Below are positions 22,758 through 39,192 of a stretch of 64,000 nucleotides of DNA, one piece after another. The notes below the pieces were generated by a model. That model did no database searches. It saw only the letters and a program-made list of their open reading frames with translations, and had not been told where the DNA came from. The first letter of the stretch is position 1. Every line of letters begins with the position of its first letter. The stretch is from the NCBI GenBank assembly GCA_034003725.1, contig JAVEYB010000014.1:1-64000 (forward strand), read 5' to 3'. A program made the position numbers and the translations under genes. This stretch comes from Candidatus Zixiibacteriota bacterium (GTDB lineage Bacteria; Zixibacteria; MSB-5A5; GN15; FEB-12).

Positions 22758-23879
22758 CTACTCAGTGCTTTTCGGTAGCGGTGTCGGATAGTTGGGGTAG
22801 ATACTCCATCTGATGAGTAACTTCCGCAGTTGGAGCAGTTTGTCTCCTCTTACTTCCGTGCGATAATACCCAGCGCGTTCCGTGGGGACCAACGAATCTG
22901 CGATTCGCGATGCCTTTTCGAGCAACTCCGGGTTCGAGAGATCCAGCACAACGTCGTGCAGCGCGGTGTCGGCCCACTGGCGAACAGAGTCCGCGTGCTG
23001 TTTCGCTACCACCTTGAGTTCCTCTTTGGTGTAGCCAACGGACTTGTGGAAGAGGCTGTCACCGGGGGCTCTGAGCCACAGTTCACCGTCAACCATCACA
23101 GCTTGATCGGAACGTCCCTCGAGCGGCTCCTTCTCCAGCTCGCGAAGCTTCTGCATCTCGACTTCGCGGCGGTGCTCGTTGCGGTCCACCTTCTTCTTGG
23201 TACCGTCCTCCAATCGCACCCAGCCGGAGTCGCCGACCGCCCGCAAGGAATCAAAGTGCGCTTTCTGTGCGGCGAGGAAGCGGGTGTGAGCACGAACTTT
23301 GGCCTCTTCGGGAGTGAGTTGACGTCCGTTCTCCGATGGCCAGACTGCTTCGGGAGGCCGGCTCATTAAGCGCTCCATCGCCTCCAGGCGAGCTTTCCAT
23401 TCGCTGGAGTCAGGAATGATCACCTCCTCCCGGGTGTTTACTGCGTAGACGCGGACGTCGTGGGTCCAGACCTCGACCGAATCGGGGCCGGTCACCCAGA
23501 AGCGCCCCGCCCACTGGGGATAGCCGCACGACGACTCGAACTTCATCCAGAAGCCGCAGGTGTCGTTTTCCGGGAGGACGACCGGCAGGTCGATGATCAC
23601 GCTCGGCTCCTGCTCGGTTTTGATCACGGGAAACGTTTTGGGGCCGCTGTAGCCCATGTTGTCGTCGTGGAAAAACTCGGCTGAGATGTCGGTGCAGCCG
23701 GTGGTGTCATAGAGCGTCACGCGGAGCGTGACCGGACCCGGCTGCAGGGCCGGGATGAACTCGTAGGAGTAATAAAAGAAGCGGGGAGGCATCGGCTTGG
23801 CGAACACCGTCCGCGCACCGCAGGTGATCAGCAGCGCGCATGCCAGCGCGGCCGTCAGGACCGAACCAATCTGTCGCAT
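22758..23879 (-). CDS. Secreted protein of unknown function under sigma-54-type promoter (373 aa)
   Basis: ATG at 23879 is preceded by GGAGGGGAGAG and starts a clear signal peptide (MRQIGSVLTAALACALLITC...ARTVFA). The first 150 mature residues are beta-rich with four cysteines (TTGCTD, DTCGFWMKFESSCGYPQW), resembling an immunoglobulin-like domain; the rest is charged and helical, with VEMQKLRELEKEP coiled-coil-like. The upstream 63 codons in frame are not used. It lies about 235 nt downstream of a predicted -24/-12 element (24124-24140) and a palindromic activator site. No family recognised. Confidence 0.65.
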   Translation of the reverse strand: MRQIGSVLTAALACALLITCGARTVFAKPMPPRFFYYSYEFIPALQPGPVTLRVTLYDTTGCTDISAEFFHDDNMGYSGPKTFPVIKTEQEPSVIIDLPVVLPENDTCGFWMKFESSCGYPQWAGRFWVTGPDSVEVWTHDVRVYAVNTREEVIIPDSSEWKARLEAMERLMSRPPEAVWPSENGRQLTPEEAKVRAHTRFLAAQKAHFDSLRAVGDSGWVRLEDGTKKKVDRNEHRREVEMQKLRELEKEPLEGRSDQAVMVDGELWLRAPGDSLFHKSVGYTKEELKVVAKQHADSVRQWADTALHDVVLDLSNPELLEKASRIADSLVPTERAGYYRTEVRGDKLLQLRKLLIRWSIYPNYPTPLPKSTE

Positions 23880-24123
23880 GATAGCTCTCCCCTCCGGATG
23901 TCCGGTTTTGCCGCACCGGACAGGCCAGAGCGATTTTGACACAAGATACGTGACGCACGCTCACCCCACCACAGATTATACGTTCACGGATCCATTTTTG
24001 AGCCGCCGAGCCGATGGCGACGAGGGTCTCGGTCGTGGCGGGACCATCGGCCCGGCGGTCAGGCAATAACAGCGCTCGAACGGACAACGGAGGCGACCTC
24101 CCCGTCCGCCCGTGAAGCGCGTA

Positions 24124-24140
24124 TGCAACCGCCGTACCGG
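24124..24140 (-). promoter_or_regulatory. Sigma-54-type promoter of the 373-aa secreted-protein gene
   Basis: On the minus strand: CCGGTACGGCGGTTGCATA. GG (24138-24137) and GC (24126-24125) are exactly 10 bp apart, with TTGCA at -12 matching the RpoN consensus and GGTAC at -24 one base off GGCAC. The activator palindrome begins 99 bp further upstream. Confidence 0.75.
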
Positions 24141-24236
24141 ATCGTGTGACTGATTGTAACAATCGACTAACAGTATGCGGGAGGACAGGATGTGCATGCG
24201 AAGAGACATTCGGGGAGAGTTTGCGGATCGTGTGGA

Positions 24237-24278
24237 GTGCGCGAATTCGCGCAGGAGCATGTGGGGTGCGTCGCGCAG
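24237..24278. promoter_or_regulatory. Palindromic upstream activator site D
   Basis: TGCGCGAATTCGCGCA (24238-24253, perfect palindrome) followed by a second TCGCGCAG half-site at 24271-24278, 24 bp after the first. Same arrangement as four other sites in the window; lies about 100 bp upstream of a -24/-12 element. Confidence 0.8.
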
Positions 24279-24350
24279 GGGGAGGTCGTGTGACAGGGCA
24301 ACATCCTGCCCGATGATACCGGTTCGAGACGAGTGGTTGTTTAGCGGGCA

Positions 24351-24381
24351 GTCCGAACCCCGCCTCGGCGGGGGTTCGGAC
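24351..24381 (-). terminator. Hairpin after the TPR/sigma-54 activator gene
   Basis: GTCCGAACCCC (24351-24361) pairs with GGGGTTCGGAC (24371-24381) around a short loop, 25 nt beyond the regulator stop on the minus strand. The T-run is poor. Confidence 0.55.
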
Positions 24382-24405
24382 CTGCTGCCATGTTATTCGA
24401 CCGAA

Positions 24406-26553
24406 TCAGAAACTGGCCGGGACCTGCTCTGCGGTATCGATTCCGAATTTGCGGAGGCGGTAGCGAATGGTGGAGTCGCTGACATTGAGGCGGCGGGCCA
24501 TCTCGCGGCGATTTCCCCCGCAGGTGTCGAGCAATTCCAGCAATTCGCGGCGTTCGATATCGGAGCGGTCGCGATCGAGCATATGGGCCATGCGATCGAT
24601 ACTGCCGCGCGATTCGACCCAGAGGCGGCGCACTTCCGCCTGCAGTTCCCGGACGTTTCCCGGCCAGATGCGGGACGACAACACTTTTGCCAGTCGAGCG
24701 ATGTCATGCCGACACCGCACGAGATCACCGTCGGCGCCGTTCAGGCGCAGGAAGTGACCGATCAGCGGCAAGATGTCCTCGGGCCGTGTGCGAAGGGCCG
24801 GGAGGGCGATGGGGATTTCGTTCAGGCGGTGGTAGAGATCGGCACGGAACTTGTTTTGCTGCACGAGCGCGACGATATCGATGTTTGAGGCGGCGATCAG
24901 GCGGAAGTCAACGGCCCGTTCGTTGTTCTCGCCGAGCCTGCGGAGGCGTTTGTTCTCGATGACTTCGAGCAGTTTCGCCTGGACGGCGGGTGTCGTGTCG
25001 GCGATTTCATTGAGATAAAACGTTCCGCCGGCGGCCAGTTCGATCAGGCCCGCGCGGTCGCTTTCGGCGCCGGTGTAGGCGCCGCGTTTGTAGCCGAACA
25101 ACTCGGCCTCGAACATGTTGTCCGGGATCGCGGCGGCGTTGACGGAGACAAACTCGCCGGTCCGCCCGGAGACATGGTGAATCCACCGTGCGATCAAATC
25201 CTTGCCGGTACCGGTCTCTCCGAGCAGGAGGACATTCATGTTCGACGGGGCGACGTACTCGATTTTCTCGAGAATGGTCTGCATGGCCCGGCTCTGGGAG
25301 ACGACAATCGGGGCTTCGCGGTCGGCGGTGGCGGGTTTGGCCCGGTGGGAGGTGAGGGTATGGAGGGCGCGGTCGGTTTTGTCGAGGTACGGCTTGACCT
25401 GCTCCCGCGCGAAATACTCCTTGGCGAGAGTGAGGTGTGCGATAGACTCTGTACTTGTGTATATGCCTGACTCGACGGCGCAGAAACGTGTGACTGCCAA
25501 CTCGTACTGGGCGCCGATCATCGCCAGCATATCGATGGCTTTGCGGAACCACTCGCGGGCGGACTCATACTCACCCCGATAGGCATCGACCTGTCCGAAC
25601 ACCCGGTGACAGGCGGCTATTTCAAGACGTTCGTTTATCTTGGTTGCGACCGCGAGGGCTTCCTCGGCGACAGTTCTCGCCCGGTCATAATCTTTCATGG
25701 CGACATAGACATCGGCGAGGAGGCGTTTGGTTTGGGAGACGAGGGTTGACTCGGGGGCGATCTGCAGAGAGAGTTTGAGCCCTTCGGAGAGATGCTTTTC
25801 GGCTTTGGTGAGATTGCCGCGAAGGGTTTCTAGTTTGCCTTTGACCTCGAGGGCAACCGCATGCTCGCGTGGATGAGACATTAAGCTCTCTGAAACTTCG
25901 TCTAGGTAGCCTCGCGCGCGATCGTACTCGCCGACGAGACACTCGGACAGACTTGCGTTAATAAAGAAATTGGTGACCCCTCTCTCACCCACGTCGAGAA
26001 TCATGGCTTCAAGTTCACCATACAGCTCACGCGCTTCAGCAAACCGCCCTATACGGCAAAGCAGGTGCGCCTTGTTCGCTTTCGCATTCATAGACTTGTC
26101 ACGACTACCAGCTTCGATATGCAACTGCGAAGCTCGATCAAGATTCAGAAGCGCCGTCGATTGGTTGCCAACATGCGTCTCCACAAACGCGAGCAGGTTC
26201 AGCGCACTCGCAGCTTTGGATTTCGAGTTGAGCCTGAGATAGCCAGCGTAAGACTCAACAAGCTGTTCCCTCGCAGCGAGAAAGTCACTTTGCATCGCCA
26301 ATTGCCATCCTTTGACATACTTCGCGCGGGCAAACATTTCGGACTGATCGCCGAATCTGAGCGCTTCAATGGCTTCGTCAATTCGCAGATTCTGACACTC
26401 ACCACTGTGCAAGAGTAGCTCGCTCTCCATGACTATGTAGAGATTCAACAACGGTGAGTCCGGATTTGGCACGCCCTGTGACTTGAGTAGTTGAAGAGCT
26501 TCGCTAAAGTCCTTCGAATCAATCAGCCGCTGAACCTCATCGAATCGTTTCAT
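24406..26553 (-). CDS. TPR-domain sigma-54 activator (bacterial enhancer-binding protein)
   Basis: 715 aa in three parts. Residues 1-400 are about ten TPR-like helix pairs with no receiver, GAF or PAS domain, suggesting control by protein or peptide binding. Residues 413-640 are the AAA+ domain: Walker A GETGTGKD (445-452), the RpoN-contact loop GAYTGA (491-496; Tyr replaces the usual Phe), Walker B TFYLNEI with Asn515 where Asp is normal, and FRADLYHRL with the arginine finger. Residues 670-705 are a Fis-type HTH (GGNRREMARRLNVSDSTIRYRL). The probable binding sites are the five palindromes listed here (inference). Start 26553 overlaps the preceding secreted-protein gene by 17 nt. Confidence 0.85.
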   Translation of the reverse strand: MKRFDEVQRLIDSKDFSEALQLLKSQGVPNPDSPLLNLYIVMESELLLHSGECQNLRIDEAIEALRFGDQSEMFARAKYVKGWQLAMQSDFLAAREQLVESYAGYLRLNSKSKAASALNLLAFVETHVGNQSTALLNLDRASQLHIEAGSRDKSMNAKANKAHLLCRIGRFAEARELYGELEAMILDVGERGVTNFFINASLSECLVGEYDRARGYLDEVSESLMSHPREHAVALEVKGKLETLRGNLTKAEKHLSEGLKLSLQIAPESTLVSQTKRLLADVYVAMKDYDRARTVAEEALAVATKINERLEIAACHRVFGQVDAYRGEYESAREWFRKAIDMLAMIGAQYELAVTRFCAVESGIYTSTESIAHLTLAKEYFAREQVKPYLDKTDRALHTLTSHRAKPATADREAPIVVSQSRAMQTILEKIEYVAPSNMNVLLLGETGTGKDLIARWIHHVSGRTGEFVSVNAAAIPDNMFEAELFGYKRGAYTGAESDRAGLIELAAGGTFYLNEIADTTPAVQAKLLEVIENKRLRRLGENNERAVDFRLIAASNIDIVALVQQNKFRADLYHRLNEIPIALPALRTRPEDILPLIGHFLRLNGADGDLVRCRHDIARLAKVLSSRIWPGNVRELQAEVRRLWVESRGSIDRMAHMLDRDRSDIERRELLELLDTCGGNRREMARRLNVSDSTIRYRLRKFGIDTAEQVPASF

Positions 26554-26839
26554 GAGGGACGCTCTCCGTCGGTGAGGGATAGGAAACAGGCACGAGGAGC
26601 CGCACGATTACATCAAGCCATAGATGTCGCATTGGCTGAATCGCCTCGTGATCGGGTTCGGTAGTCTCCGGACCCACGACTGCAGCGTCGACATTCCAAC
26701 CAGTCTCCTCGCCCTGTGGTTTGTCGGCGCGGTTTTGCAGCTGGTCCATCCACATCGGGCGGCTTCGCGCCGAGACCCCGGGCGCAAAGATGCACACGAG
26801 CATAGCCACCATTACGAGTGCTACACATATCTTCTTCAT
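26537..26839 (-). CDS. Small secreted protein coupled to the activator (100 aa)
   Basis: The signal peptide MKKICVALVMVAMLVCIFAPGVSARS is followed by an 75-residue hydrophilic, Cys-free mature part rich in Pro, Glu and Trp (RPMWMDQLQNRADKPQGEE). GGAAGGGT precedes the ATG at good distance. The stop lies inside the first codons of the TPR activator gene, so translation is coupled. A role as a signal or anti-activator for the TPR domain is an inference from position alone. Confidence 0.6.
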   Translation of the reverse strand: MKKICVALVMVAMLVCIFAPGVSARSRPMWMDQLQNRADKPQGEETGWNVDAAVVGPETTEPDHEAIQPMRHLWLDVIVRLLVPVSYPSPTESVPHETIR

Positions 26840-27379
26840 AACAGAGACCCTTCCGGTCTGGTCGTTAAATCGTCTCTACCGCTCCGGGCCGCCACGACTA
26901 CGCCCCGGGGCGCAATATGCAAAAGCCGACAGTCGCGTGTGAGTCACGCGGTGCGTAAGCGATTCATTTTGTTGCTTGTACGGACCCTTCCCTCGGGCGC
27001 TTCCGCAACGGGTCGGACACAATCAGCCGAGACACACGACCACGGTGCGGGTGGGATTCCGATGTACGATCACGATGCGAGATCACTCCCCGCCGAGTTC
27101 AAACCGCAGGCTCCCCCAGAGACCGGGTTTGAATGTCATTAAACTCACACGCAGAATACGCGGTGTGGCAGGATTTTGTCAAGGCAGAAATTGCGCGCAA
27201 GCTGCTGAAACGTCACGAGATGACTTTCACTGCCGTGACTTGACAGTGGAATTGTTAGAAATAGCGTCGATTTGCGAATAAACTCGCGTGCGGCCGGCTG
27301 TTTGCGAGGGACAGTTTTTGTCACACGGCAGGTAGGCAAAGGGAAGGCGGGTCCGAGGATGGACCCGCCTTGCTGCTGC
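26840..27379. other. Intergenic region with decayed relative of the activator-site region
   Basis: 540 bp without a gene. The stretch 27190-27260 (cgcgcaagctgctgaaacgtcac...cttgacag) is recognisably similar to 34458-34505 beside activator site B, but the palindrome itself has been lost; only TTGCGCGCAA remains at 27191-27200. A hairpin (TTCAAACC...GGTTTGAA, about 27099-27133) and the terminator of the 82-aa gene (27344-27371) are also here. No convincing -24/-12 element was found. Confidence 0.55.
27344..27371 (-). terminator. Terminator after the 82-aa membrane protein
   Basis: AAGGCGGGTCC (27344-27354) pairs with GGACCCGCCTT (27361-27371). On the minus strand it lies just after the stop at 27380 and is followed by CCCTTTGCC. 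Confidence 0.7.
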
Positions 27380-27628
27380 TCAATTCCAGCGCATGAAGTA
27401 CGAGATCGCGATAAGGAGAAATCCGGCGGTGACGAGAATCGGTCCGATCCTTTGAAGAACGTACCCAGGTGGGGTCCACCACTCCTTCTTCCATCCAAAA
27501 TGTCCGAGAAACACAGGATGATAGAAAGGACGGGGATTCTCCGGAGTCCTGAAGAAGTTGGCCACCAGGATCATCGCGATTCCACCGCCGATGAAACTGA
27601 GAGAAATCACAGCCAGTGTTTTGTACAT
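27380..27628 (-). CDS. Small two-span membrane protein (82 aa)
   Basis: Two hydrophobic segments, MYKTLAVISLSFIGGGIAMILVANFF and IGPILVTAGFLLIAISYFM, flank a Trp/Pro-rich loop (FYHPVFLGHFGWKKEWWTPPG). GGAGGAAGGTC precedes ATG 27628. It follows the 84-aa membrane protein and a strong hairpin at 27691-27727, so it may be transcribed by read-through or by its own promoter. Unknown family. Confidence 0.55.
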   Translation of the reverse strand: MYKTLAVISLSFIGGGIAMILVANFFRTPENPRPFYHPVFLGHFGWKKEWWTPPGYVLQRIGPILVTAGFLLIAISYFMRWN

Positions 27629-27749: not shown

Positions 27750-28004
27750 TCAACTGGGAAAGTAGTGGAGTATCGCCCACATCACAGCGCCCAGAAGCAC
27801 CGGAAGGACCACCAACCGAACCGGGTTCAGCTTCTCCTTCGGTACAAACGTGAGTTGGGCGAGCAGTGCGCAAATCGCTACGGCGACTCCCCAGCCGATT
27901 GCAGCCTCATTGAATTGCCTTGTGATAATGACGGCTACCGCAACTGCAACGCACATTCCGAGCAGGTGCAGGGCAACCGCACGATTACTGCAGGCAAACG
28001 ACAT
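27750..28004 (-). CDS. Small membrane protein beside the first precursor (84 aa), immunity candidate
   Basis: Two to three hydrophobic helices: VALHLLGMCVAVAVAVIITR, AAIGWGVAVAICALLAQLTF and LVVLPVLLGAVMWAILHYF. ATG 28004 follows AGAGGAGAAGA. It lies 11 nt downstream of the Cys-rich precursor gene. A different small membrane protein sits at the same place after the paralogous precursor (34667-34906), which supports a role paired with the precursor, for instance immunity; this is inference. Confidence 0.55.
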   Translation of the reverse strand: MSFACSNRAVALHLLGMCVAVAVAVIITRQFNEAAIGWGVAVAICALLAQLTFVPKEKLNPVRLVVLPVLLGAVMWAILHYFPS

Positions 28005-28015: not shown

Positions 28016-28780
28016 CTATGATTCGGAGCTCCCACCAAATATGGCGTCGATGCCACAAATGATGGCACTCGCACCTGCACTTACACCTACACACTTGAAG
28101 TAGAGGCAGTTTGTAACAGCACAACCCAGAAGAGCGCTGCCGGTGCTCTGACCCAGGCACTTCCAGAATCCGGCAAGGTCGACCGGTTCGGGATCCGGTA
28201 TGAACTCTCCACCAACGAAAGAACCACTTCTCATAACCGCGGCCGTGTCAGTACTCACATCCATCTCCAGAAAGACGCTATTCTTGACGCCGGCGTTGGT
28301 CCAGCGCGTAACGATTGCAGTGTGATTCGCCGGATCGCTGGTCGGGTTCTCAAATGCCGCCCAGAGTATGGTATCCTCCAAGACCCGGACCGGATCATTG
28401 CCAAGAAATGGCTTCCGAGCCGCCTGCGACTCGGCGTCGATGTCGGCCGCTGACTCCGGTTCGGCATTCGTGTACCGTTTCACGAGCACAACGCTGTTGG
28501 TGTCCATGAACGAGTACCCCTGGGCTGTCAGCCATTCATGGGCATCGACCACATCCTCATCGTTCAGCGCCGATGAGATTGCCGAAGTCTTGGTCGGCGA
28601 TTCGTCCAGATACTTGGAGCACACTGTGGCTGTCAAACCATCCGACAATTCTGTGTTCGAAGGTGCGGTGATGTCGTCGGACTGCTGGTTGTCAAACCAG
28701 CTATTACAGCCGATCGTCAGGTTCATCATGGCTACGATAACCATCAGAACCATCCCCCTTGAGATAATCTTACTAAGCAT
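28016..28780 (-). CDS. Lipoprotein-like precursor with Cys-rich hydrophobic tail, paralogue 1
   Basis: 254 aa. The first 26 residues (signal with ISRGMVLMVIVAMMNLTIGC) are almost identical to those of the gene at 34957-35754 and end in a lipobox-like LTIGC. Residues 27-200 are hydrophilic and acidic with no recognised domain. The last 55 residues are hydrophobic and rich in Cys, Gly and Ala: FWKCLGQSTGSALLGC, then NCLYFKCVGVSAGASAIIC, five cysteines in all. A large N-terminal part with a hydrophobic Cys-rich C-terminal peptide recalls halocin C8-type precursors, a resemblance of architecture, not demonstrated homology. Located after the redoxin gene in a sigma-54-type operon. Confidence 0.6.
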   Translation of the reverse strand: MLSKIISRGMVLMVIVAMMNLTIGCNSWFDNQQSDDITAPSNTELSDGLTATVCSKYLDESPTKTSAISSALNDEDVVDAHEWLTAQGYSFMDTNSVVLVKRYTNAEPESAADIDAESQAARKPFLGNDPVRVLEDTILWAAFENPTSDPANHTAIVTRWTNAGVKNSVFLEMDVSTDTAAVMRSGSFVGGEFIPDPEPVDLAGFWKCLGQSTGSALLGCAVTNCLYFKCVGVSAGASAIICGIDAIFGGSSES

Positions 28781-28858: not shown

Positions 28859-29473
28859 TCAGGACCGTTTCGCCAACATCTCGCTCAACCACAAAGCCGC
28901 GCGCTCGAAATCCTCCTGGCTCTCCGGCGTATTGTCGGCCCCCCGGATGTAAACGGCGGTCATGGTTGAGTCGTACAGGATCTTGAACGGCATGAATCGG
29001 GAGGAAATGCCCATCTGCGCAAAAGTCATCGAAGTATCGTCGGCGCCGATCACCAGCGGAATTTCCAGCTCCCAGTCGTCGAGCTGCTGCGCGATCGCGC
29101 TCGAGTCGCGAAGCGTGCAGATCGCCACGATCGACTGCTCGCGTTCTTTGAAGACGGGAAGAAGATTCCGAAAAACGTGCGCTTCGCTCATACTCACCGG
29201 GCAGGTTGTCTCCGAAGAGAGAAACACGGCCAGGGTAAGCGAAGGCACTTCTTCGATTGGGGCGCCGTCGGCGACGATCATCCGGCCGATGCCGGGGTAG
29301 GTGTAGATTCCCCGAAGGTCTTCGTACACTCCCCCGTAGTCGACCAGAAACGACGGCTGCTCGTCCTGCTTCTGAATGACTTCTTTCAGTTGGAAGTTCT
29401 GTATCAGGAGCATGACGTTCAGCACCACCAGGATGACAAACGCAGTCGGGATCATTACCTTTTTCATTCTCAT
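28859..29473 (-). CDS. Membrane-anchored thioredoxin-fold (redoxin) protein
   Basis: 204 aa: N-terminal anchor MIPTAFVILVVLNVMLLI, then a thioredoxin-like domain. SSETTCPVSM (about residue 90) is at the CxxC position, but only the first cysteine remains (CPVS). PFKILYD supplies the loop corresponding to the cis-Pro region. It ends in LWLSEMLAKRS; a remnant encoding WLSEMLARRS occurs upstream of the second precursor. The gene follows the short peptide at 29503 and is likely to act on its disulfide or on the precursor (inference). ATG 29473 follows GAGGTGGAGGTAG. Confidence 0.7.
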   Translation of the reverse strand: MRMKKVMIPTAFVILVVLNVMLLIQNFQLKEVIQKQDEQPSFLVDYGGVYEDLRGIYTYPGIGRMIVADGAPIEEVPSLTLAVFLSSETTCPVSMSEAHVFRNLLPVFKEREQSIVAICTLRDSSAIAQQLDDWELEIPLVIGADDTSMTFAQMGISSRFMPFKILYDSTMTAVYIRGADNTPESQEDFERAALWLSEMLAKRS

Positions 29474-29502: not shown

Positions 29503-29772
29503 TTATTGGGTGTGCACCCCCGCGCTTGACACTGTCAGTTGGGCGTCGCCGATCGGGATTGTCAGACAGTCCGATCCGACTCCCCAGCAGCCGAGGAACG
29601 TGCCCTGCGCATTGAACTGTTTCTTCTTGAGCTTGAGGATGCCAATCGGGAACAGCCGGGCTTCGATCATCGAATGCGAGTCGGTCGTGACCGGCGCGTT
29701 GATCTGGGCGAGATTGGCGGTTACCAGCAGACCGAGAAACAGCCCTGCGATGACACGTTTGGTGCGTGACAC
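29503..29772 (-). CDS. Short secreted peptide with paired cysteines (89 aa)
   Basis: GTG at 29772 is chosen because GAGGTG lies 7 nt upstream; a TTG two codons earlier is too close to it. Signal peptide KRVIAGLFLGLLVTANLA is followed by a mature part of about 65 residues ending GTFLGCWGVGSDCLTIPIGDAQLT with two cysteines. The size, the signal and the late Cys pair recall the NVEALA-type secreted peptides of Bacteroidota, which also neighbour 6-bladed propeller and thioredoxin genes. First gene after a predicted sigma-54-type promoter. Confidence 0.6.
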   Translation of the reverse strand: MSRTKRVIAGLFLGLLVTANLAQINAPVTTDSHSMIEARLFPIGILKLKKKQFNAQGTFLGCWGVGSDCLTIPIGDAQLTVSSAGVHTQ

Positions 29773-29848: not shown

Positions 29849-29865
29849 TACAACCTTCGTGCCAA
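29849..29865 (-). promoter_or_regulatory. Sigma-54-type promoter of the 29503 peptide operon
   Basis: On the minus strand: TTGGCACGAAGGTTGTAGA. The -24 box TTGGCACG is a perfect consensus; the -12 box is TTGTA, with T in place of the usual C at the GC position. GG to GT spacing is 10 bp. The activator palindrome starts 101 bp upstream; transcription would start near 29838. Confidence 0.7.
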
Positions 29866-30012: not shown

Positions 30013-32160
30013 TCACATGCTCACCAGATAGCGAACCTTCATCACGAACACCTGCTCCAGCGGCTGATAGGTGTGATCATCGCGGCGCCGCTGATAGTCA
30101 TTGTAAGCAAGGTAGAGCCAGCTTTTCGGCAGGAAATTGTACGCCAGCGACAGCCCCACACGAACCGACCGAATCCCCACACTCCGATATACCGTCGACT
30201 CACCATACGCCCGCATGCTGATGTCCCGTGTGACCGAGTACGAACAGCCGGGGCGAAATCGCCAGGTGATCTCCTCGACAGATCCGCCGGGATCGTTTTC
30301 TATCCAGGCGTCACCGTTGAAGAAGACCGACATTGCCGACTGCGGCTTGAAGCTCGCGTACCAGTCGATATTCCACGACCGGGCGAGATAGTACCGCAGA
30401 TAGTTGAAAGATCGTGATGTACTGACGTTCACTATGAACCAGGCCCGCCGGGAGACGTCGCTTCGCAGAAAGCCCGACCAACTTCGGGGATCATAGCGCA
30501 TGTCCTGTTCGAAGTCTCTCCCCCAGGCATAGGTCAGCCCGGCGCCCCAGTTGCATCGCATGGCCAGCGCCAGGTTGATCGAGTAGCGGCTGGCGTAGAT
30601 TGACTCACCGTACTCGCGGTCGAACTGTGTCCCAAATGCGATCTTCCCGTAGGTCAACAATCCGGACGACGGATATACGGTCGGGCCTGCCGAAGCAGCG
30701 TACGACCGGTAGTCGTACCAGGGGACGAACCCAATATCGGAGACGTCGAAATCGTAGCCGATACTCACTGCGTCGGCTCGTAGTGAAAGCCCGCGCGGCG
30801 TGTAATGAAACGACCCCAACCACGCCCAGTCGTTGTAGTCGTCGTAGCGGCTCCGCGCCACCTGACCGTAGACATCCAGCAGCGCGTTGCTGAGGCCGGC
30901 GTCGACCGAGTAGACATCGTTGTGGTGATCCTGTTCGTACTCACCGGCCTGGAACAGCCCGACCGTCGTTCCGGGAGTCGGATGGACGGTGACGCGATTG
31001 ACCGCGAAGGTGGCGGCCTGCTGCGTCTCGGGACCGTACCAGCCCTCGTAGTCTTCGCTCCCGGTGCGTGCCAGCAGCGTCCCAAACTCCACTCTGGGGA
31101 GCTTGCCGACCAGTCGGCCGCCGGCCTGAATGGGCACCTCGGTCCCGTCCGGAAGTTTCTTGCCAATCGACCGGGAATAGAACAGCGTGAGGAGGCCGGC
31201 CATCGCCCCGCCGGGGGGATCGAAAAACTCCTGTCCTTCGACAAAAAACGGCCGTTTCTCGGAGAAGTAGATCGCATACTTGGAGAGATTCAGCGCGAAT
31301 GGGTCAGCTTCGACCTGTGCGAAATCCGGATAGAAGGTTGTCTGGAGACGCACCGCGGGTGTCAGCGCCCAGTTTATATCGGCTCCCACGCGCACCCGGT
31401 CACTTCGCTCGTTGTAGCTTTTCTCCGCGCGAAAGAACGTAGTGGGCGCCAGTTCGAGTCCGAGGTTTCGGTCTGCCGGCGCCACTCCTTCGAGCCGCCC
31501 GAACCCTGAGACGGATAACGCTTCGTTCTGTTTAACAGGGACGGCGTATCCGACCTCGCCCTGCTTTGGAATCTTCCGCTCAAGATTAAAGCCCCAGGCC
31601 GGCGCGCCTTTGTCGAACTGCAGACTCGACCATGGAATCGCCATTTCAACAATGAAGATGCCCGTATCGACGTAGACCGCCGACTCAAACACCCCGTCCC
31701 AGGTGATATTCTCCTCCCGTCCATTGGCGGAGAGCACCGCATCCGATTGCACGTTGCCACAGGACACAGTGAACCGATAGGCGGTCTGACGGTCGAAAAA
31801 CGTATCGAGAAACAACGACACCTCGTCGCCGCTCCTGCTCTCACGCGTCTCTCGACGGCAGTCCGGATACCTGTTCGGCGTCTTGCATTTGAAGGCTATG
31901 TAGAGGGCCCGGCTGTCCTGAAGTATGTAGACGGTGGTTGGCTCCGACAGCGGCAGGCCTTCGTCCGGGGTTACCTGCACGAACGACGTTACGGAGTCGC
32001 CGGTACGCCAGCACAGATCGAGAAGGCCGTCGATCTCCGGTGCAGCAGTAACGGTCGTCACACGATATGAAAGCTGATCATCGGAAGCGAGTGCGGCGAG
32101 CCATAGCATGAGTAGAAGTGCGGCGCACCTCGCCAGTGTTTTACAAGTTCGCCACAGCAT
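30013..32160 (-). CDS. Outer-membrane barrel with CBM9-like N-terminal domain (DUF5916 family)
   Basis: 715 aa. ATG 32160 overlaps the TlpA-like gene by 20 nt and starts a signal peptide (LARCAALLLMLWLAALA). Residues about 30-210 resemble the family 9 carbohydrate-binding module (APEIDGLLDLCW, ALYIAFKC, EVSLFLDTFFDRQTAYRF, FIVEMAIPWSSL). KYAIYFSEKRPFFVEGQEFFDPP and the beta-strand-rich remainder ending VFVMKVRYLVSM match DUF5916 outer-membrane proteins. It closes the peptide-propeller-TlpA operon and could be the outer-membrane exit or receptor for its products (inference). Confidence 0.8.
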   Translation of the reverse strand: MLWRTCKTLARCAALLLMLWLAALASDDQLSYRVTTVTAAPEIDGLLDLCWRTGDSVTSFVQVTPDEGLPLSEPTTVYILQDSRALYIAFKCKTPNRYPDCRRETRESRSGDEVSLFLDTFFDRQTAYRFTVSCGNVQSDAVLSANGREENITWDGVFESAVYVDTGIFIVEMAIPWSSLQFDKGAPAWGFNLERKIPKQGEVGYAVPVKQNEALSVSGFGRLEGVAPADRNLGLELAPTTFFRAEKSYNERSDRVRVGADINWALTPAVRLQTTFYPDFAQVEADPFALNLSKYAIYFSEKRPFFVEGQEFFDPPGGAMAGLLTLFYSRSIGKKLPDGTEVPIQAGGRLVGKLPRVEFGTLLARTGSEDYEGWYGPETQQAATFAVNRVTVHPTPGTTVGLFQAGEYEQDHHNDVYSVDAGLSNALLDVYGQVARSRYDDYNDWAWLGSFHYTPRGLSLRADAVSIGYDFDVSDIGFVPWYDYRSYAASAGPTVYPSSGLLTYGKIAFGTQFDREYGESIYASRYSINLALAMRCNWGAGLTYAWGRDFEQDMRYDPRSWSGFLRSDVSRRAWFIVNVSTSRSFNYLRYYLARSWNIDWYASFKPQSAMSVFFNGDAWIENDPGGSVEEITWRFRPGCSYSVTRDISMRAYGESTVYRSVGIRSVRVGLSLAYNFLPKSWLYLAYNDYQRRRDDHTYQPLEQVFVMKVRYLVSM

Positions 32161-32695
32161 AACCCAGATCCCTCCAGAAACGCTCGCGTTCTTCCCCCGG
32201 GCTCCTGGGCGGGTCCGCCCACTGAATTCGTGCTGTCGAGTCAACCAGCACCTTCAGCGGCGTGACTCGAAAGTTCATCTCCCTCTCGAGCCAGCCTGTC
32301 GTATCAAGATACGCTTGAATTCCCCATTCAGTGTTGTCCACCCATTGAAAGAATTCGGGCGCGTTGGTGTGCGTGCCTACACCGTACACGGCGGCGTCAC
32401 CGCGCCGGACAACTTCATTCCACAGCTCCGATTCGCTGAAGCAGGGCGGGCAATCGGATGGTGCGAAAAAGACAAACATGGTGTGCCCGTGTCTTGCCGC
32501 GATCTCCCGCAGGGAGACGGAGTCTCCATCTCGATCTACAACCGTCATATCAGGGAGTCGAATTGCGCCGACATACGTATCGGCGGGAGCAATGACAGCT
32601 ACCGCTGATTCGCGGGCGTGTTTCAACTGGACGATCAGCGCGATGTTGGCGACAGCGAGGACCGCGATGATGGTGATGCTCCAACCCTTGCGCAT
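32141..32695 (-). CDS. TlpA-like membrane-anchored thioredoxin
   Basis: 184 aa: signal anchor ITIIAVLAVANIALIV, then a thioredoxin fold with active site SDCPPC and the cis-Pro loop VTPLKVLVD. Unlike the relative at 28859 both cysteines are present, so reductase or isomerase activity in the periplasm is expected. The gene starts two bases after the propeller gene and overlaps the barrel gene, indicating one transcript from the promoter at 34307-34322. Its likely substrates are the Cys-containing peptides of the operon (inference). Confidence 0.82.
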   Translation of the reverse strand: MRKGWSITIIAVLAVANIALIVQLKHARESAVAVIAPADTYVGAIRLPDMTVVDRDGDSVSLREIAARHGHTMFVFFAPSDCPPCFSESELWNEVVRRGDAAVYGVGTHTNAPEFFQWVDNTEWGIQAYLDTTGWLEREMNFRVTPLKVLVDSTARIQWADPPRSPGEERERFWRDLGYAVANL

Positions 32696-32697: not shown

Positions 32698-33804
32698 CTA
32701 CCTCCCAACCGTGCAGGACGCGCGGACCAGGTCGCTCCCGTCGACGCTCAACAGAAAAACCGAGCCGTCGTCGCAGGCTCCCACCGGCCAGTAGTCGGAG
32801 TAGATCGCGTCGCCGAGATGTTGTCCCTCACGGGAGAACACGTCGATCACAAACCGCGACGTGCACCCCGGGACAAACCCGTTGGCTTCAGCAACTCGAA
32901 TCAGTCGACCGTCGGCGAGTCGAACCAGCTTCACTATGCGCGTCCACGAAGTGAGGTGTCCTTCGGGCGGGCTGTCGTAGTCGCCTTTGATTCGCAGCAT
33001 CTCGTGCGGCCCAACCCACCAATCGGGCCGATCTCCGATCGTGCCGGTCAGTTTGCCGTTTCTGTCGAAGATATAAATCGTCGGGTCGACTGAAAACACG
33101 ACAAAGGTGTTGCCCTGTTCGTCGGTCTCGACCGAGGATGACACGCCGGTCCACAGTCTTTTCGAGAACGCGATATCGGGCGTGTAGGCGTACGCCTGCA
33201 GCCACTTGCCGGTTGTGTCGACCACATTGCAGTAGAAGCCCGCGTTGATGTCCTGCGGGTCGCTCATGACCAGGCATGACAGCAGCAGTGTATCCGGTCC
33301 GAGCAGGTCGCAATCCCAGGGCGTATCCATATCCGGAGGGAGCAGAAAACTGAATCGGAACGCTTCGTCGGCATCGAATACTGACACCCGCCTGCTGCCG
33401 GCATCGCTGACAAACAGGTTACCATCGCCGGTCCAGACAACGGCGCTGGGAAGGTTGACGTCGCCGGGATATGCGCCCTGAGCTGCAATGCGATCAACGT
33501 TCTGCGAGGGCACATAGGCCTCGAGTTCGGCGGTCTCGCTGAACGAGACATGGGTGGCCTGGGAGGTGTGACGCGCGACCGATTTCACGACCTCATCGCG
33601 GAGATCCATGACGCATACTTCATGGCGAGCCAGATCGATAAACGCGGCTTTCGTGCCTTCACGATTGACCGACCAGAACGAGTAGAAGGTCCACTCTCGT
33701 TCAGCAGAGACCTGGAAATCGGGCGGAATGGACCATCTCTCTTCGGCCACAAATGTCGAATCGGTTGCGAGTACAGCCGTCATTATTAGCAAAACCGTAA
33801 ACAT
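32698..33804 (-). CDS. 6-bladed beta-propeller secreted protein
   Basis: 368 aa. The signal peptide (MFTVLLIMTAVLA) is followed by repeats of NHL/6-bladed-propeller type, best seen in LPSAVVWTGDGNLFVSDAGSRRVSVFDAD and VETDEQGNTFVVFSVDPTIYIFDRNGKL. AAGGAGGG precedes ATG 33804. In Bacteroidota such propellers commonly neighbour short NVEALA-type secreted peptides, as is the case here. It is probably periplasmic or surface-exposed and may bind the peptide (inference). Confidence 0.8.
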   Translation of the reverse strand: MFTVLLIMTAVLATDSTFVAEERWSIPPDFQVSAEREWTFYSFWSVNREGTKAAFIDLARHEVCVMDLRDEVVKSVARHTSQATHVSFSETAELEAYVPSQNVDRIAAQGAYPGDVNLPSAVVWTGDGNLFVSDAGSRRVSVFDADEAFRFSFLLPPDMDTPWDCDLLGPDTLLLSCLVMSDPQDINAGFYCNVVDTTGKWLQAYAYTPDIAFSKRLWTGVSSSVETDEQGNTFVVFSVDPTIYIFDRNGKLTGTIGDRPDWWVGPHEMLRIKGDYDSPPEGHLTSWTRIVKLVRLADGRLIRVAEANGFVPGCTSRFVIDVFSREGQHLGDAIYSDYWPVGACDDGSVFLLSVDGSDLVRASCTVGR

Positions 33805-34306: not shown

Positions 34307-34322
34307 TACAACTTTCGTGCCG
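34307..34322 (-). promoter_or_regulatory. Sigma-54-type promoter of the peptide-propeller-TlpA-barrel operon
   Basis: On the minus strand: CGGCACGAAAGTTGTATTG. GG at 34321-34320, GT at 34309-34308, 10 bp apart; -24 GGCACG matches consensus, -12 is TTGTA as in the promoter at 29849. The palindrome begins exactly 101 bp upstream (34422). Confidence 0.7.
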
Positions 34323-34421: not shown

Positions 34422-34463
34422 CTGCGCGAATTCGCGCAGCAAACCCCTCGCCGCGTCGCGCAG
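34422..34463. promoter_or_regulatory. Palindromic upstream activator site B
   Basis: CTGCGCGAATTCGCGCAG at 34422-34439 and TCGCGCAG at 34456-34463, 24 bp after the first half-site. Identical core to sites A and C. Confidence 0.85.
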
Positions 34464-34666: not shown

Positions 34667-34906
34667 CTACTGATTCCTGACGGTTTTTTCGTGTTTGTCA
34701 TCGCGGCCGAGTGCCCATTGGAAGAGCAGCGCGGTTACCAAGCCGAGGCCGAACGATATCAGATTCCAGGCCAGTGCGGGAATGAACTCCCCGCCGCTTG
34801 CAGCTCCAGTCGAGAATCCAAGCCCGAGACCGACGGCGAGGCCGATCCCGATCCAGGAACCCGCACTAATGGGCTTCTTACTTGTGTCGGCGGCATTTTT
34901 GCTCAT
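34667..34906 (-). CDS. Small Gly-rich membrane protein beside the second precursor (79 aa), immunity candidate
   Basis: Two hydrophobic segments: WIGIGLAVGLGLGFSTGAASGG and FIPALAWNLISFGLGLVTALLFQW, with charged ends (MSKNAADTSKK, GRDDKHEKTVRNQ). It follows the precursor gene by 50 nt and precedes a terminator. Position equals that of the 84-aa membrane protein after the first precursor, although the sequences differ. A pairing with the precursor, such as immunity or export, is inferred. Confidence 0.55.
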   Translation of the reverse strand: MSKNAADTSKKPISAGSWIGIGLAVGLGLGFSTGAASGGEFIPALAWNLISFGLGLVTALLFQWALGRDDKHEKTVRNQ

Positions 34907-34956: not shown

Positions 34957-35754
34957 TCATCCGAATACCTTGAATGCACATTTGACAGCGGCATAGATAG
35001 CCCCTGCCGCACAGCCGAGCGCGACGCATTTCGGGTACCCCGGGCCCGTGGCACCGCAGACTATCAAGGCACCAACACACGGCCATGCTGCTTCTCGACG
35101 AACACAGTCGAGGTACTTGAATATCTGCGCATCGAGCGTTGCAGCATTGCCGTCACGCCCGCTCATCGCTCGTGCCGGATAGACTGCTGCCGGGTAGTCA
35201 AACTGCCAAACGCCGTCCGTCACTCCAGCCCACCCCTGCTGACCGCTCGGATAGACAAACGACAGCAAGTAGGGTGAGATGACGCGACCGTACTCGCAAT
35301 CGATGACATCGACATACGCAGCTTTCTCGGTCGTGTCAGCAGCATAGACGAACGCCACTGTAATCCGGTTGACGAAAACGGAGTCGGTCCCGTCGTCAGA
35401 TACCGCGTACAGCGACTGGGCAAACGAGTACGTACGAGAGAAACGATACCCATTAGTATAGAAGCTATCGACGATCGCCTCGATTCTCGGCATCTGAAGC
35501 GCTCCGATCAGGGGATCATCCCCCGGCTCGATGTACTCGTCGGTCCCGACAATAGCATCGCGCCAGCCGTCCTGGAGGAAGTCGTTGATGGCTGAATGCT
35601 CGGCTGCCGATGTCTGAGAGACCTTGTCAGTTTCGGTGGCAGTCGGTTGAACCGAATCTGTCGGTGCGGTGTGGTGGTTGCAGCCGATCGTGAGGTTCAT
35701 CATGGCCACGATAACCATCAGAACCATCCCCCGTGAAATAGTTTTATGAAACAT
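34957..35754 (-). CDS. Lipoprotein-like precursor with Cys-rich hydrophobic tail, paralogue 2
   Basis: 265 aa. Signal MFHKTISRGMVLMVIVAMMN...LTIGC matches that of 28016-28780 at 22 or so of 26 positions, and the DNA is likewise conserved there, but the middle domain differs (about residues 30-215, mixed alpha/beta, no family recognised). The last 50 residues are hydrophobic with six cysteines: DCVRREAAWPCVGALIVC, GYPKCVALGC, AAVKC. The YxKCV segment aligns with YFKCV of paralogue 1. First gene after a consensus sigma-54-type promoter, with a leader of about 200 nt containing a gene remnant. Confidence 0.6.
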   Translation of the reverse strand: MFHKTISRGMVLMVIVAMMNLTIGCNHHTAPTDSVQPTATETDKVSQTSAAEHSAINDFLQDGWRDAIVGTDEYIEPGDDPLIGALQMPRIEAIVDSFYTNGYRFSRTYSFAQSLYAVSDDGTDSVFVNRITVAFVYAADTTEKAAYVDVIDCEYGRVISPYLLSFVYPSGQQGWAGVTDGVWQFDYPAAVYPARAMSGRDGNAATLDAQIFKYLDCVRREAAWPCVGALIVCGATGPGYPKCVALGCAAGAIYAAVKCAFKVFG

Positions 35755-35966: not shown

Positions 35967-35982
35967 AGCAACAGATGTGCCG
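35967..35982 (-). promoter_or_regulatory. Sigma-54-type promoter of precursor 2 operon
   Basis: On the minus strand: CCGGCACATCTGTTGCTTT. GG (35981-35980), N10, GC (35969-35968), with GGCAC and TTGCT: the closest match to the RpoN consensus in the window. The palindrome begins 101 bp upstream. Confidence 0.85.
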
Positions 35983-36081: not shown

Positions 36082-36123
36082 CTGCGCGAATTCGCGCAGT
36101 AAACCTCTCGCCGCGTCGCGCAG
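36082..36123. promoter_or_regulatory. Palindromic upstream activator site C
   Basis: CTGCGCGAATTCGCGCAG at 36082-36099 and TCGCGCAG at 36116-36123; 24-bp half-site spacing as in sites A, B and D. Confidence 0.85.
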
Positions 36124-36203: not shown

Positions 36204-37058
36204 TCAGTCGGTTTTCATACTGACGAGATAGTCGTCTTTTCCGCTTATGACGGCCACCGCGGGTTCGCAGTCGTAGCAGATCGTGATATACAGGCGGACC
36301 GTGCTTTCGACCGGGTGGCCGTTGACTATTCTTGCCTTGTAGTCGTAGCGGAAGACAATCGCATCCTCGGTTACCGATCTGAATCCCCGGCCGGGGGGCT
36401 GTTCACTGATGAACTGATATGATATCGTTTCATCTTCGTGAATGGTGATATCGACGACGACATAGCCGGTGTCGCTTCGGTGAGCGGTCATCGGCCAGAA
36501 GATATTGCTGACCGCAATCATGGCGCATCGATCATGACCGCGTAAAATCAGGTCGGGTTCGCTCGCAGCGGGGAGATCGAAACGGGCTGCGACCGGCAGC
36601 AGCCAGTTCTCTGCGGGCAGGCCGAAGTCGGTGTCGCCGCCCGAACCGTCACCGTCACCGGCCTGCGCGTATATCACGGCGGGATCACCCAGTTCGAATC
36701 CAGGGAGAGGGGACAGTGGTTGGTCGTTCGGGATAGTCAGAGTCAGGGAGACGCGCGGCGTATCGGGGATGATTCTGATGCTTGCCAGCAATCCTCCTGC
36801 GAACACGGCGTGTGCGCGCTCGCCGGCAGTCGGCGCAGTGTGCCGTCCCGGGCCGCCGCTGCGAAAGCCTGTCGGCAGCGTTGGTTCGCTAACGGTGAAG
36901 CGAACCAACGTGGATGGTCCGGGCCCGAAACACAGGCTGCCGATCACAACGGCGACGACGCTTGAAATGGTGACGATCAGCAGGCTGATCGCCATATTGC
37001 GCTGATAGGAGCGTTTGTGGTCCAGTCCCAGGTATCGCCAATGACCTTGCGATTGCAC
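36204..37058 (-). CDS. TonB-family energy transducer
   Basis: GTG at 37058 is preceded by GGAGGG at the right distance and gives 284 aa; an in-frame ATG at 37106 lacks one. A short cytoplasmic part is followed by the anchor MAISLLIVTISSVVAVVIGSL and a periplasmic linker. The last 80 residues resemble the TonB C-terminal domain: GYVVVDITIHEDETIS, PPGRGFRSVTEDAI, YKARIVNGHPVESTVRLYITICY. It would couple inner-membrane energy to an outer-membrane receptor; no ExbB/ExbD is nearby. Last gene of the operon from the promoter at 38975. Confidence 0.75.
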   Translation of the reverse strand: MQSQGHWRYLGLDHKRSYQRNMAISLLIVTISSVVAVVIGSLCFGPGPSTLVRFTVSEPTLPTGFRSGGPGRHTAPTAGERAHAVFAGGLLASIRIIPDTPRVSLTLTIPNDQPLSPLPGFELGDPAVIYAQAGDGDGSGGDTDFGLPAENWLLPVAARFDLPAASEPDLILRGHDRCAMIAVSNIFWPMTAHRSDTGYVVVDITIHEDETISYQFISEQPPGRGFRSVTEDAIVFRYDYKARIVNGHPVESTVRLYITICYDCEPAVAVISGKDDYLVSMKTD

Positions 37059-37391: not shown

Positions 37392-37525
37392 CCTGAACTC
37401 CTTTCAAGAAGATCCGCTTTCTGATTCCGTTCGGGATTGATTCCTATATCCCCCGCGAAGATTCCGATGGCAGTTCCTCCCTGTATAGAAGTTATCGGCA
37501 CCTACGAGGCCGAACTGACGGCGCC

Positions 37526-38125
37526 CTACAGTCGATCTTTGTCCGACAGTCGCGTCAAATCGCGACGCGACATCATTATCTGCACAGCGCGTTCGTCCTT
37601 CACGAGCGCGAGGATGTTAAAGGGATACGCAGCCCGGAGCAGACCGGAAGAAACCCAGCGGTCCCGTTCCACCGGAAGTCCGTCCGCGAGTTCCGCCCGG
37701 ACGATCAACGCATCAAACAGGCCACTGACTTCACAGCCGCAATGGCGATTGAACACGAGCATGACGGCTTGAGTCTCAGGGTTGCTTCTGACGATGAAGC
37801 CGTGCTGGGGTAGTTGCGAATCGAACAGGAACACCGAGTCCTGACGTAACGAGTCGTAGAGACGCCAGTAGAAATCGGCGAGGCCGGCGGTGACGGACGA
37901 ATCCGGCAGGGAGGCGTCGAGATCGACGATGTACACCTCGACCGGATGCGGATGGGCCTGGTCGGACACCTGCCGGGCAATTGCCCGCGCACGGGGTACA
38001 ATGAAACTCAAGAAGAAGATCAGGCATAACGCGGCCACAAAACCGATTGAGGCGAACACGTAGATCAGCGCCTTGTACAGCGTGACGCCCTGTCTTCTTT
38101 CTATTGCCTGCGGCTTTGATTGCAT
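37526..38125 (-). CDS. Membrane-anchored protein of unknown function (199 aa)
   Basis: ATG 38125 (MQSKPQAIERRQG) follows GGGGAGAGGAAG; a TTG two codons upstream is less likely. One N-terminal anchor, ALIYVFASIGFVAALCLIFFLSFIV, is followed by about 150 extracytoplasmic residues containing a CGC pair (NRHCGCEVSGLF). The HGFIV...MLVFNRHCGCEV region could be a thioredoxin-like beta strand and active-site turn, but no domain was recognised. Second gene of the operon starting at 38871. Confidence 0.55.
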   Translation of the reverse strand: MQSKPQAIERRQGVTLYKALIYVFASIGFVAALCLIFFLSFIVPRARAIARQVSDQAHPHPVEVYIVDLDASLPDSSVTAGLADFYWRLYDSLRQDSVFLFDSQLPQHGFIVRSNPETQAVMLVFNRHCGCEVSGLFDALIVRAELADGLPVERDRWVSSGLLRAAYPFNILALVKDERAVQIMMSRRDLTRLSDKDRL

Positions 38126-38142
38126 GGGCAACTTCCTCTCCC

Positions 38143-38871
38143 CTACTCAAACATCCAAATATCGATCAGATGCAGCAGGCCAAACACCGCACCCGCCACC
38201 CAGTAGCCTTCGCGTCCGCGAAACGAAAACACGCGCTGCATTCCGGAACCGACCACGACAGCCTGCCACACCAGCGGAAGACTGATAGTGAGCAGAAACA
38301 ATTCGTAGAAGTCTCCTGGGCGGCCGCCCAGAGCGAGGACAATCGGACGGAGACTGATTTCAATGGAGGTCGTTCGGGTGAGCAGTATCAGGGGAAGCAG
38401 GAGGTACGCGCAGAGGATTGCGATGGTTTCGCCCAGGATAGCCACATACAGGATTCTCGAGAAGGTGCGCGGCGCGGAAAGCGAGCCGGGGTGGCTGACA
38501 CCGATCGGGCCGGCGCCTTCGGCTGAACCGGTCAGCCGTGCGACGAACAGCGCCGCTCCCCACAGAAGGGCTGCGGTGAGAAGCGGTTTTATAATTGGAG
38601 AGATAATCCCCATCAACACCGTGAGAATCTCGATGAATCGGGCGGCCTGTGCGGTATCAATCGGCTGGCGGTCCAGGTACGCCGTTTTCGCCGCAAGGAA
38701 TGTTTGGGCTTCGATTCGACAGGTAAGCAGCGCGAACACCAGTGAGAGCAGAATCAGGGCAGTCCAGAGCGCGCGGGTGTGGGGTCGGTTGTGGAGCGCG
38801 TGGAGTACGAAGGGATCGACGACGAATGTGGCGACGCTCGGGTTCACCGATTGGGCGCTCTCTCGATGCAT
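38143..38871 (-). CDS. Yip1-like multi-span membrane protein (242 aa)
   Basis: Five hydrophobic segments, starting after a 35-residue cytoplasmic part with FVLHALHNRP. The FSRILYVAILGETIAILCAYLLLPL and WVAGAVFGLLHLIDIWMF segments, together with the overall size, resemble Yip1-domain proteins, a weak family assignment. GAGGGGCTGTCC precedes ATG 38871. First gene of the operon under promoter E, followed 17 nt later by the anchored 199-aa protein. Confidence 0.55.
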   Translation of the reverse strand: MHRESAQSVNPSVATFVVDPFVLHALHNRPHTRALWTALILLSLVFALLTCRIEAQTFLAAKTAYLDRQPIDTAQAARFIEILTVLMGIISPIIKPLLTAALLWGAALFVARLTGSAEGAGPIGVSHPGSLSAPRTFSRILYVAILGETIAILCAYLLLPLILLTRTTSIEISLRPIVLALGGRPGDFYELFLLTISLPLVWQAVVVGSGMQRVFSFRGREGYWVAGAVFGLLHLIDIWMFE

Positions 38872-38974
38872 GGACAGCCCCTCGTGAGAGAGTTAAAAGA
38901 GATTCAGTTTATCCGGATTGGACCGTGCGAGATGAGTGAACCGGTGATTATTCGATGCTGATAGAATTACAGTA

Positions 38975-38990
38975 AACAACTTCAGTGCCG
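38975..38990 (-). promoter_or_regulatory. Sigma-54-type promoter of the Yip1-like/peptide/TonB operon
   Basis: On the minus strand: CCGGCACTGAAGTTGTTTA. GG (38989-38988), N10, GT (38977-38976). The -24 box GGCAC matches; the -12 box is TTGTT. The activator palindrome begins 98-99 bp upstream. Confidence 0.65.
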
Positions 38991-39086
38991 GTTTTTTCGG
39001 GCATACCGCATAAAACTTATGCGCATGGGGATCAAGCGCTTAGGCTAAACGGGACGGGTGGCGGGGAAGCCGTGTGAGTGCATAAG

Positions 39087-39192
39087 GTGCGCGAATTCGC
39101 GCAGGTGCCGCGCGGAAATTCGCGCAGCTATCGGAAGCTATGGTGCGACAAGAGGATAAAGCCGCGCTATTTCGCGCAGCATTTTCGCGCAG
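39087..39192. promoter_or_regulatory. Clustered activator site E (four half-sites)
   Basis: TGCGCGAATTCGCGCA palindrome (39088-39103), then TCGCGCAG half-sites at 39120-39127, 39172-39179 and 39185-39192. The second is preceded by GCGCGGAAAT, making an imperfect palindrome. More half-sites than at any other site in the window. Confidence 0.8.

Follow-up and report, generated by a model that had tools for sequence, protein, structure and literature searches.

The stretch of DNA analysed here, called the window, comprises the first 64,000 nucleotides of contig JAVEYB010000014.1 (C14:1-64000) from a Candidatus Zixiibacteriota genome that spans 3.73 Mb in 35 contigs and is 99.5% complete. The window encodes a sigma-54 activator with tetratricopeptide repeats (TPRs), a small secreted peptide whose gene overlaps the start of the activator gene, and five transcription units for secreted and envelope proteins, each preceded by a palindrome and a -24/-12 element (Table 1). 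The original prediction, made from the sequence of the window, had described these five promoters as a regulon of the local activator. This regulon is well supported by comparative evidence, since six such units and no others are found in the genome, rpoN is present, the sister species carries the same sites together with the orthologous activator, and relatives carry palindromes of their own. Comparisons were made with a sister species of the same genus (G001), with a second genome of that genus (G002) and with wider sets from the phylum; counts over homologous loci carry phylogenetic dependence.

Palindromes, promoters and their probable activator

The palindrome TGCGCGAATTCGCGCA occurs in five exact copies in the window (sites A to E), every one of them intergenic. 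With up to three mismatches allowed, seven matches are seen against a mean of 1.2, a count not attained by any dinucleotide-shuffled version of the window. Each exact copy is followed by a -24/-12 element at the distance listed in Table 1, counted between the last base of the 16-mer and the start of the -24 box. Matches to the -24/-12 consensus alone are at chance level in the window (27 against 21 expected), so that the pairing with the palindrome is the significant part. The five intergenic units of the original prediction are thus confirmed, as is its spacing series (99, 101, 101, 101 and 98-99 bp), which differs by one base in the choice of end point.

A scan of the whole genome with the sites and the -24/-12 pair had been proposed as the check on this regulon, and either a palindrome scattered through the genome or the absence of rpoN was named as what would speak against it. 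The genome contains six exact copies of TGCGCGAATTCGCGCA, none with one mismatch and eight with two mismatches. The combined pattern CGCGAATTCGCG-N90-110-GGYAYN5TTG matches exactly six times, while the reversed control gives zero matches, and rpoN was found (E 6e-58). The sixth site (F), on contig C2 at position 157221, has its -24/-12 element at 101 bp and faces a gene for a secreted 258-residue protein. When compared by eye, this protein closely resembles a G001 protein that is encoded under the palindrome inside the syntenic cluster. Because the sixth site lay outside the sequence on which the original prediction was based, it is independent confirmation; the five units stand, and the regulon is larger than was proposed. 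Beyond the sixth palindrome, at L002 1940-2095, a tandem repeat of GTCGTCGGCGCACGAGGACGTACGCCAACCACGAAT-like units lies inside an open reading frame (ORF) on the opposite strand.

The palindrome and the activator occur together. The exact palindrome was found in two of 61 related genomes, both of which, and no others, encode the orthologous activator (64% identity). In G001 the orthologue is accompanied by three such sites upstream of homologous genes, and G002 has neither the palindrome nor an orthologous activator. All nine sites, six here and three in G001, share an invariant 17-mer, CTGCGCGAATTCGCGCA, and a CGCGA half-site 23-24 nt upstream.

Homologous activators in other genera adjoin their own related palindromes (TGCGTAAATTACGCA, TTCGTAAATTTACGAA, CTCGTAAATTACGAG and TGCGTAGACTACGCA). 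The centres of these lie mostly 103-109 bp upstream of the -24 box, and the palindromes are often doubled with a spacing of 31 bp, about three helical turns. In relatives, 38 of 480 candidate promoter sites have an upstream palindrome, compared with 43 of 1976 in shuffled sequence. TGCGTA-type palindromes in the genomes of five relatives lie within about 6 kb of a homologous activator in 13 of 18 cases. The L183 locus (G043) has a pair of identical promoters with the palindrome TTAAATTCGCATCTGCGAATTTAA, and the operons behind them resemble operon C of the window; these operons appear to encode a small lipoprotein, a propeller-like and a redoxin-like protein, and phmmer established no homology to the window.

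The activator has a sigma-54 AAA+ domain (PF00158, E 4e-59), a Fis-type helix-turn-helix (HTH) domain (PF02954, E 7e-9) and TPRs (TPR_12, E 1e-18), and its sigma-54 loop reads GAYTGA. In its activator group the Walker B motif is LNE instead of LDE, with Asn replacing Asp, in 25 of the 30 matched sequences; the Asp was found in all 99 comparison activators, 85 from other phyla and 14 from the same genome. Among 36 genomes, full-length matches to the TPR activator were listed for a single named Candidatus Zixiibacteriota genome, and the remaining matches listed span the AAA+ and HTH domains only. A single-protein search of genome contigs gave no match. Matches from the alignment search were mostly to AAA+ domains of unrelated activators; L161 proved to be one of these.

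Direct binding of the palindromes by the local activator is very probable, given their co-occurrence in same-genus genomes and the related palindromes beside distant homologues. This protein is, as had been stated, the only sigma-54 activator in the window, and the genome encodes about 24. With so many, and with binding by the local protein something that we infer, another of them could bind the palindromes while the local activator regulates something else. This is very improbable, since in three same-genus genomes the palindrome goes with the orthologous activator, in presence as in absence, and homologous activators elsewhere adjoin palindromes of their own. Sites B, C and D share extended mutual similarity and are plainly the result of promoter duplication, which might point to a duplicated or mobile repeat without regulatory role, but such a repeat was rejected on conserved spacing and genome-wide exclusivity, since sites A, E, F and one G001 site have diverged except for the palindrome, the -24/-12 element and their spacing, and only six copies exist in the genome.

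A peptide gene beside the activator

The gene that overlaps the activator gene was overlooked in the original prediction and is conserved phylum-wide. The window peptide has a homologue in the sister species (E 1.5e-25), with nonsynonymous divergence (dN) of 0.42 and synonymous divergence (dS) of 2.0, and that species has two such peptide genes. In eight peptide pairs dN is below dS (dN/dS about 0.1-0.7), so that the peptide ORFs are real genes. Among 46 homologous TPR-sigma-54 activators with enough upstream sequence, an adjacent ORF with a signal peptide was found for 40 and an acidic-flanked Trp for 37. Control genes from the same loci had a signal-peptide ORF in 25 of 268 cases and the acidic-Trp motif in none (Fisher p 6e-40). 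These counts were obtained with a strict filter, which replaced a first, looser one for upstream ORFs that had matched 68 of 290 controls.

The other two TPR activators of the genome also have a peptide, with the motifs DSHPWGGDE and AEHAWDAD, while none of 17 other activators of the genome that were examined has a motif-bearing peptide. In a second activator group across the phylum, peptides with [DE][DE]HPW[GQ][GD][DE] were found at 31 of 40 loci, and the rest mostly have degenerate versions. Activator matches (E up to 1e-120, both groups pooled) are present in 98 of 132 genomes. A second architecture, consisting of TPRs, a middle domain and the sigma-54 AAA+ domain in 985-991 residues, is seen at L038 (C3), L098 and L089; these genes are also preceded by acidic-Trp peptides (AEHAWDAD, GSEHPWDED and GEHPWNDD). 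The phylum-wide presence of a peptide gene next to the activator gene suggests what the activator senses.

Several homologous peptides are 101-134 residues long. The peptides have Sec-type signals with AxA-like cleavage sites, the acidic-Trp motif is in several cases at the extreme C-terminus, and in many peptides the motif is followed by another hydrophobic stretch. The peptide-activator operon is preceded by a sigma-70-type promoter in a leader block that is about 95% identical between the two species, compared with 64% for the activator proteins. An inverted repeat, TTCAAACC/GGTTTGAA, lies in the leader, which has no Rfam match and folds no better than shuffled sequences.

Products of the target operons

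The features of the locus are collected in Table 1. The beta-propeller, the barrel, the redoxins and the TonB-like protein named in the original prediction fared differently. The propeller is matched by an NHL-type model, and the barrel rests on the DUF5916 and CBM9 matches. One redoxin has an AhpC-TSA match and the second a weak one, and the TonB-like protein has a weak match to TonB_C. A look-alike of the redoxin-like protein of operon B precedes a six-Cys precursor at L315.

Table 1. Features of the sigma-54 regulon and of the peptide-activator operon, with positions in the window
Feature	Coordinates	Strand	Evidence or remark
Target A: secreted protein, 373 aa	22758..23879	-	homologue (E 9.5e-107) under a sister-species palindrome
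-24/-12 element A (CGGTACGGCGGTTGCA)	24124..24139	-	98 bp downstream of site A
Palindromic site A (TGCGCGAATTCGCGCA)	24238..24253	-	exact copy, aligned
TPR - sigma-54 AAA+ - Fis-type HTH activator, 715 aa	24406..26553	-	Pfam, family alignment, TPR model
Secreted peptide gene, 100 aa, Sec-type signal, GEETGW	26537..26839	-	17-nt overlap with start of activator gene; candidate signal peptide
Conserved block of about 200 nt around promoter and leader	27085..27284	-	about 95% identical to sister species
Sigma-70-type promoter of peptide-activator operon, TTGACA-18-TATTCT	27153..27182	-	conserved in sister species
Small membrane protein	27380..27628	-	homologues L080_3957 and L086_7398 adjoin other activators; has its own gap, may or may not belong to operon B
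Operon B: small membrane protein, immunity-like position	27750..28004	-	its homologue L194_6968 adjoins a different activator
Operon B: lipoprotein with Cys-rich hydrophobic C-terminal tail, C-x11-C-x4-C-x4-C-x11-C	28016..28780	-	
Operon B: redoxin-like membrane-anchored protein	28859..29467	-	weak AhpC-TSA match (E 0.05)
Operon B: secreted peptide, 89 aa, CWGVGSDC	29503..29772	-	sequence
-24/-12 element B (TGGCACGAAGGTTGTA)	29849..29864	-	gap 100 bp
Palindromic site B	29965..29980	-	exact copy, aligned
Operon C: CBM9 and DUF5916 protein, probable outer-membrane barrel	30013..32244	-	Pfam matches
Operon C: AhpC-TSA family redoxin	32141..32695	-	E 1e-6
Operon C: NHL-type beta-propeller protein	32698..33804	-	NCBIfam NHL model, E 6e-7
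Operon C: secreted Cys-rich peptide, 69 aa	33949..34158	-	sequence
-24/-12 element C (CGGCACGAAAGTTGTA)	34307..34322	-	gap 100 bp
Palindromic site C	34423..34438	-	exact copy, aligned
Operon D: small membrane protein, immunity-like position	34667..34906	-	homologue in sister species
Operon D: lipoprotein with six-Cys tail, C-x8-C-x6-C-x9-C-x4-C-x10-C	34957..35754	-	tail invariant in five genera
-24/-12 element D (CGGCACATCTGTTGCT)	35967..35982	-	gap 100 bp
Palindromic site D	36083..36098	-	exact copy, aligned
Operon E: membrane-anchored protein, weak TonB_C	36204..37058	-	E 0.02; homologue (E 2.5e-43) under a sister-species palindrome
Operon E: secreted Cys-rich hydrophobic peptide, 79 aa	37152..37391	-	sequence
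Operon E: membrane-anchored protein, no family match	37526..38125	-	
Operon E: multi-pass membrane protein	38143..38871	-	weak YknW-family match (E 6e-5), far below family cut-off
-24/-12 element E (CGGCACTGAAGTTGTT)	38975..38990	-	gap 97 bp
Palindromic site E	39088..39103	-	exact copy; two 3-mismatch copies at 39111 and 39163

In both operon B and operon D a small membrane protein comes directly after the lipoprotein, and the same order is seen at L076, L082, L194, L198 and L312; the membrane nature of the small proteins was judged by eye from hydrophobic stretches. The six-Cys tail was also found by the phylum search in a sixth genome (G127), directly downstream of its activator. Strong -24/-12 sites lie upstream of such lipoproteins in eight relatives, and CPBP-type proteases are encoded in two lipoprotein loci. 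The two lipoproteins of the window have a near-identical signal peptide (SRGMVLMVIVAMMNLTIGC) and are unrelated in the remainder, which suggests recent exchange of modules.

An arrangement of this kind is known from SdpC/SdpI and from halocin C8, in which a small membrane protein follows an exported precursor whose C-terminal part is hydrophobic and disulfide-prone. The window units share with them the hydrophobic Cys-rich precursor tail and the downstream gene for a small membrane protein, but have a lipoprotein anchor and no family match. The products thus resemble bacteriocin-immunity units, and by this analogy an antagonistic function is plausible, if just short of probable. Alternatively, and only a little less plausibly, the products could serve the structure or redox chemistry of the envelope, or form a system for surface display. 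Such a role would fit the redoxins, the propeller, the DUF5916 barrel and the TonB-like protein of the operons, as well as the lack of any match to a bacteriocin family. It would leave aside the hydrophobic, Cys-rich tails that in many genera keep a fixed spacing while the lipoproteins that bear them vary rapidly, the small membrane protein after each lipoprotein and the CPBP-type proteases in some loci.

The proposed switch and its known parallels

A structural model of the TPR domain gives a superhelix with predicted local distance difference test (pLDDT) values mostly of 70-95 over residues 65-400; it was built with one usable related sequence, and its AAA+ part is poor. Folds matched by the model include those of LGN, the quorum sensor NprR, Rap with its peptide (Rap-CSF) and MalT, and with all four among the matches the fold is not discriminating by itself. 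Polar residues that are nearly invariant (N119, E236, Q274, R277, D281 and R317) occupy TPR positions 2, 5 and 9. In TPR proteins these positions face the concave groove. The sequence profile of the region matches kinesin light chains, and KLC1/2 are among its best structural relatives outside AAA+ proteins. No RRNPP receptor was found among sequence matches to PDB chains; the resemblance is in the fold matches only.

Is the peptide read by the activator next to which it is encoded? The case for the peptide as the ligand of the TPR domain seems to us evenly balanced. Several points weigh against it and against the wider reading of the locus. The signal-peptide and motif filters are heuristics of our own, used without SignalP, the motif was defined after inspection, and the counts over homologous loci are non-independent. 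Some homologous activators, such as those of the g30 subgroup (L093, L184-L186), lack a recognisable peptide. The fold is matched equally well by LGN, MalT and generic TPR proteins and by quorum sensors, no carrier for re-import of the peptide across two membranes was found, and no product matches a known bacteriocin family in Pfam or NCBIfam.

The peptide might instead act after export as a sensor or negative regulator, such as a reporter of envelope or redox state in the periplasm or membrane, while the TPR domain answers another ligand or partner. The second hydrophobic stretch in many peptides, the envelope and redox proteins among the regulon products and the missing importer would agree with this. 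It appears rather unlikely, as the AxA-like cleavage sites, the short and in several cases C-terminal acidic-Trp motif and the conserved polar residues of the TPR groove fit a soluble peptide ligand better.

With the peptide as a soluble ligand, the locus may be a sigma-54 switch that is complete in itself, with a peptide of its own and a peptide-receptor logic like that of RRNPP systems, a model that we hold, on the sequences compared, to be slightly the better bet. The sigma-70 promoter would yield the small secreted peptide and, by overlapping translation, the TPR-AAA+-HTH activator. The peptide with its acidic-Trp motif would be exported by the Sec pathway, and a processed form would re-enter the cell, where it would most likely be bound by the TPR groove and release the AAA+ domain. 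The activator, seated on palindromes that lie some 100 bp ahead of six RpoN promoters, one on C2 and the others in the window, would then drive bursts of secreted and envelope products. Among these, the redoxins could set the disulfides of the Cys-rich peptides, and the Cys-tailed lipoproteins with the small membrane proteins could act as bacteriocin-type effectors with immunity. More tentatively still, secreted acidic-Trp peptides might be read directly by the TPR domains of sigma-54 activators throughout Zixibacteria, and in the branch of the window control Cys-rich antagonistic peptides.

Such a system would bring signalling with RRNPP logic to a Gram-negative-type phylum without a known case, with a recognition code like that of kinesin light chains and W-acidic motifs. 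It would offer a concrete and testable peptide motif and receptor. With a palindrome this sharp, members of the regulon can be predicted from sequence, and among uncultured bacteria the products are candidates for new antimicrobial peptides. The literature searched, which left subscription papers and preprints outside, gave no description of TPR-sigma-54 activators encoded together with peptides, and the literature on NVEALA and on Zixibacteria gave nothing useful.

Peptide quorum sensing through TPR receptors has been described for Firmicutes (PMC10075063), and this Firmicutes-based idea would be widened by a second phylum in which most genomes have a conserved peptide beside a TPR-sigma-54 activator. 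The published RRNPP criteria comprise a propeptide of 10-100 residues, Sec export, a receptor of about 250-500 residues with TPRs, and adjacent genes (PMC10075063). Four of the five are present or likely in the window pair: peptide size, TPRs and gene adjacency were found, Sec export is suggested by a signal-peptide pattern seen with our own heuristic only and without SignalP, and the receptor, at 715 residues, is outside the size range. Because receptor size and sequence relationship were both tested and neither agrees, the pair is not classed as a member of RRNPP. What is shared is a gene for a small peptide, here with a putative Sec signal, that adjoins the gene of a TPR regulator (PMC10075063); what differs is that the regulator is a sigma-54 activator, that the peptide gene lies upstream, that the peptide has an acidic-Trp motif and that the phylum is of Gram-negative type.

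The TPRs of kinesin light chains have been shown to bind Trp flanked by acidic residues (PMC6214655). A TPR groove and an acidic-flanked Trp motif are thus common to both systems (PMC6214655), whereas kinesin light chain is a eukaryotic motor adaptor and the likeness is one of motif and fold only. The parallel is suggestive and is not taken as evidence of common descent.

With the NtrC-type enhancer-binding proteins, the activator shares the sigma-54 AAA+ domain, the Fis-type HTH domain, a dyad about 100 bp upstream of the -24/-12 element and rpoN in the genome; it differs in having a TPR sensor, not a receiver, GAF or PAS domain, and in the Asn that most matched members of its group have in Walker B. 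The nearest regulatory parallel is the PEP-CTERM/PrsK-PrsR regulon, in which an upstream motif and a sigma-54 promoter precede genes for exported proteins under a dedicated activator. PrsR is paired with a histidine kinase as its response regulator, the targets are PEP-CTERM proteins, and a co-encoded peptide is not described (PMC1569441).

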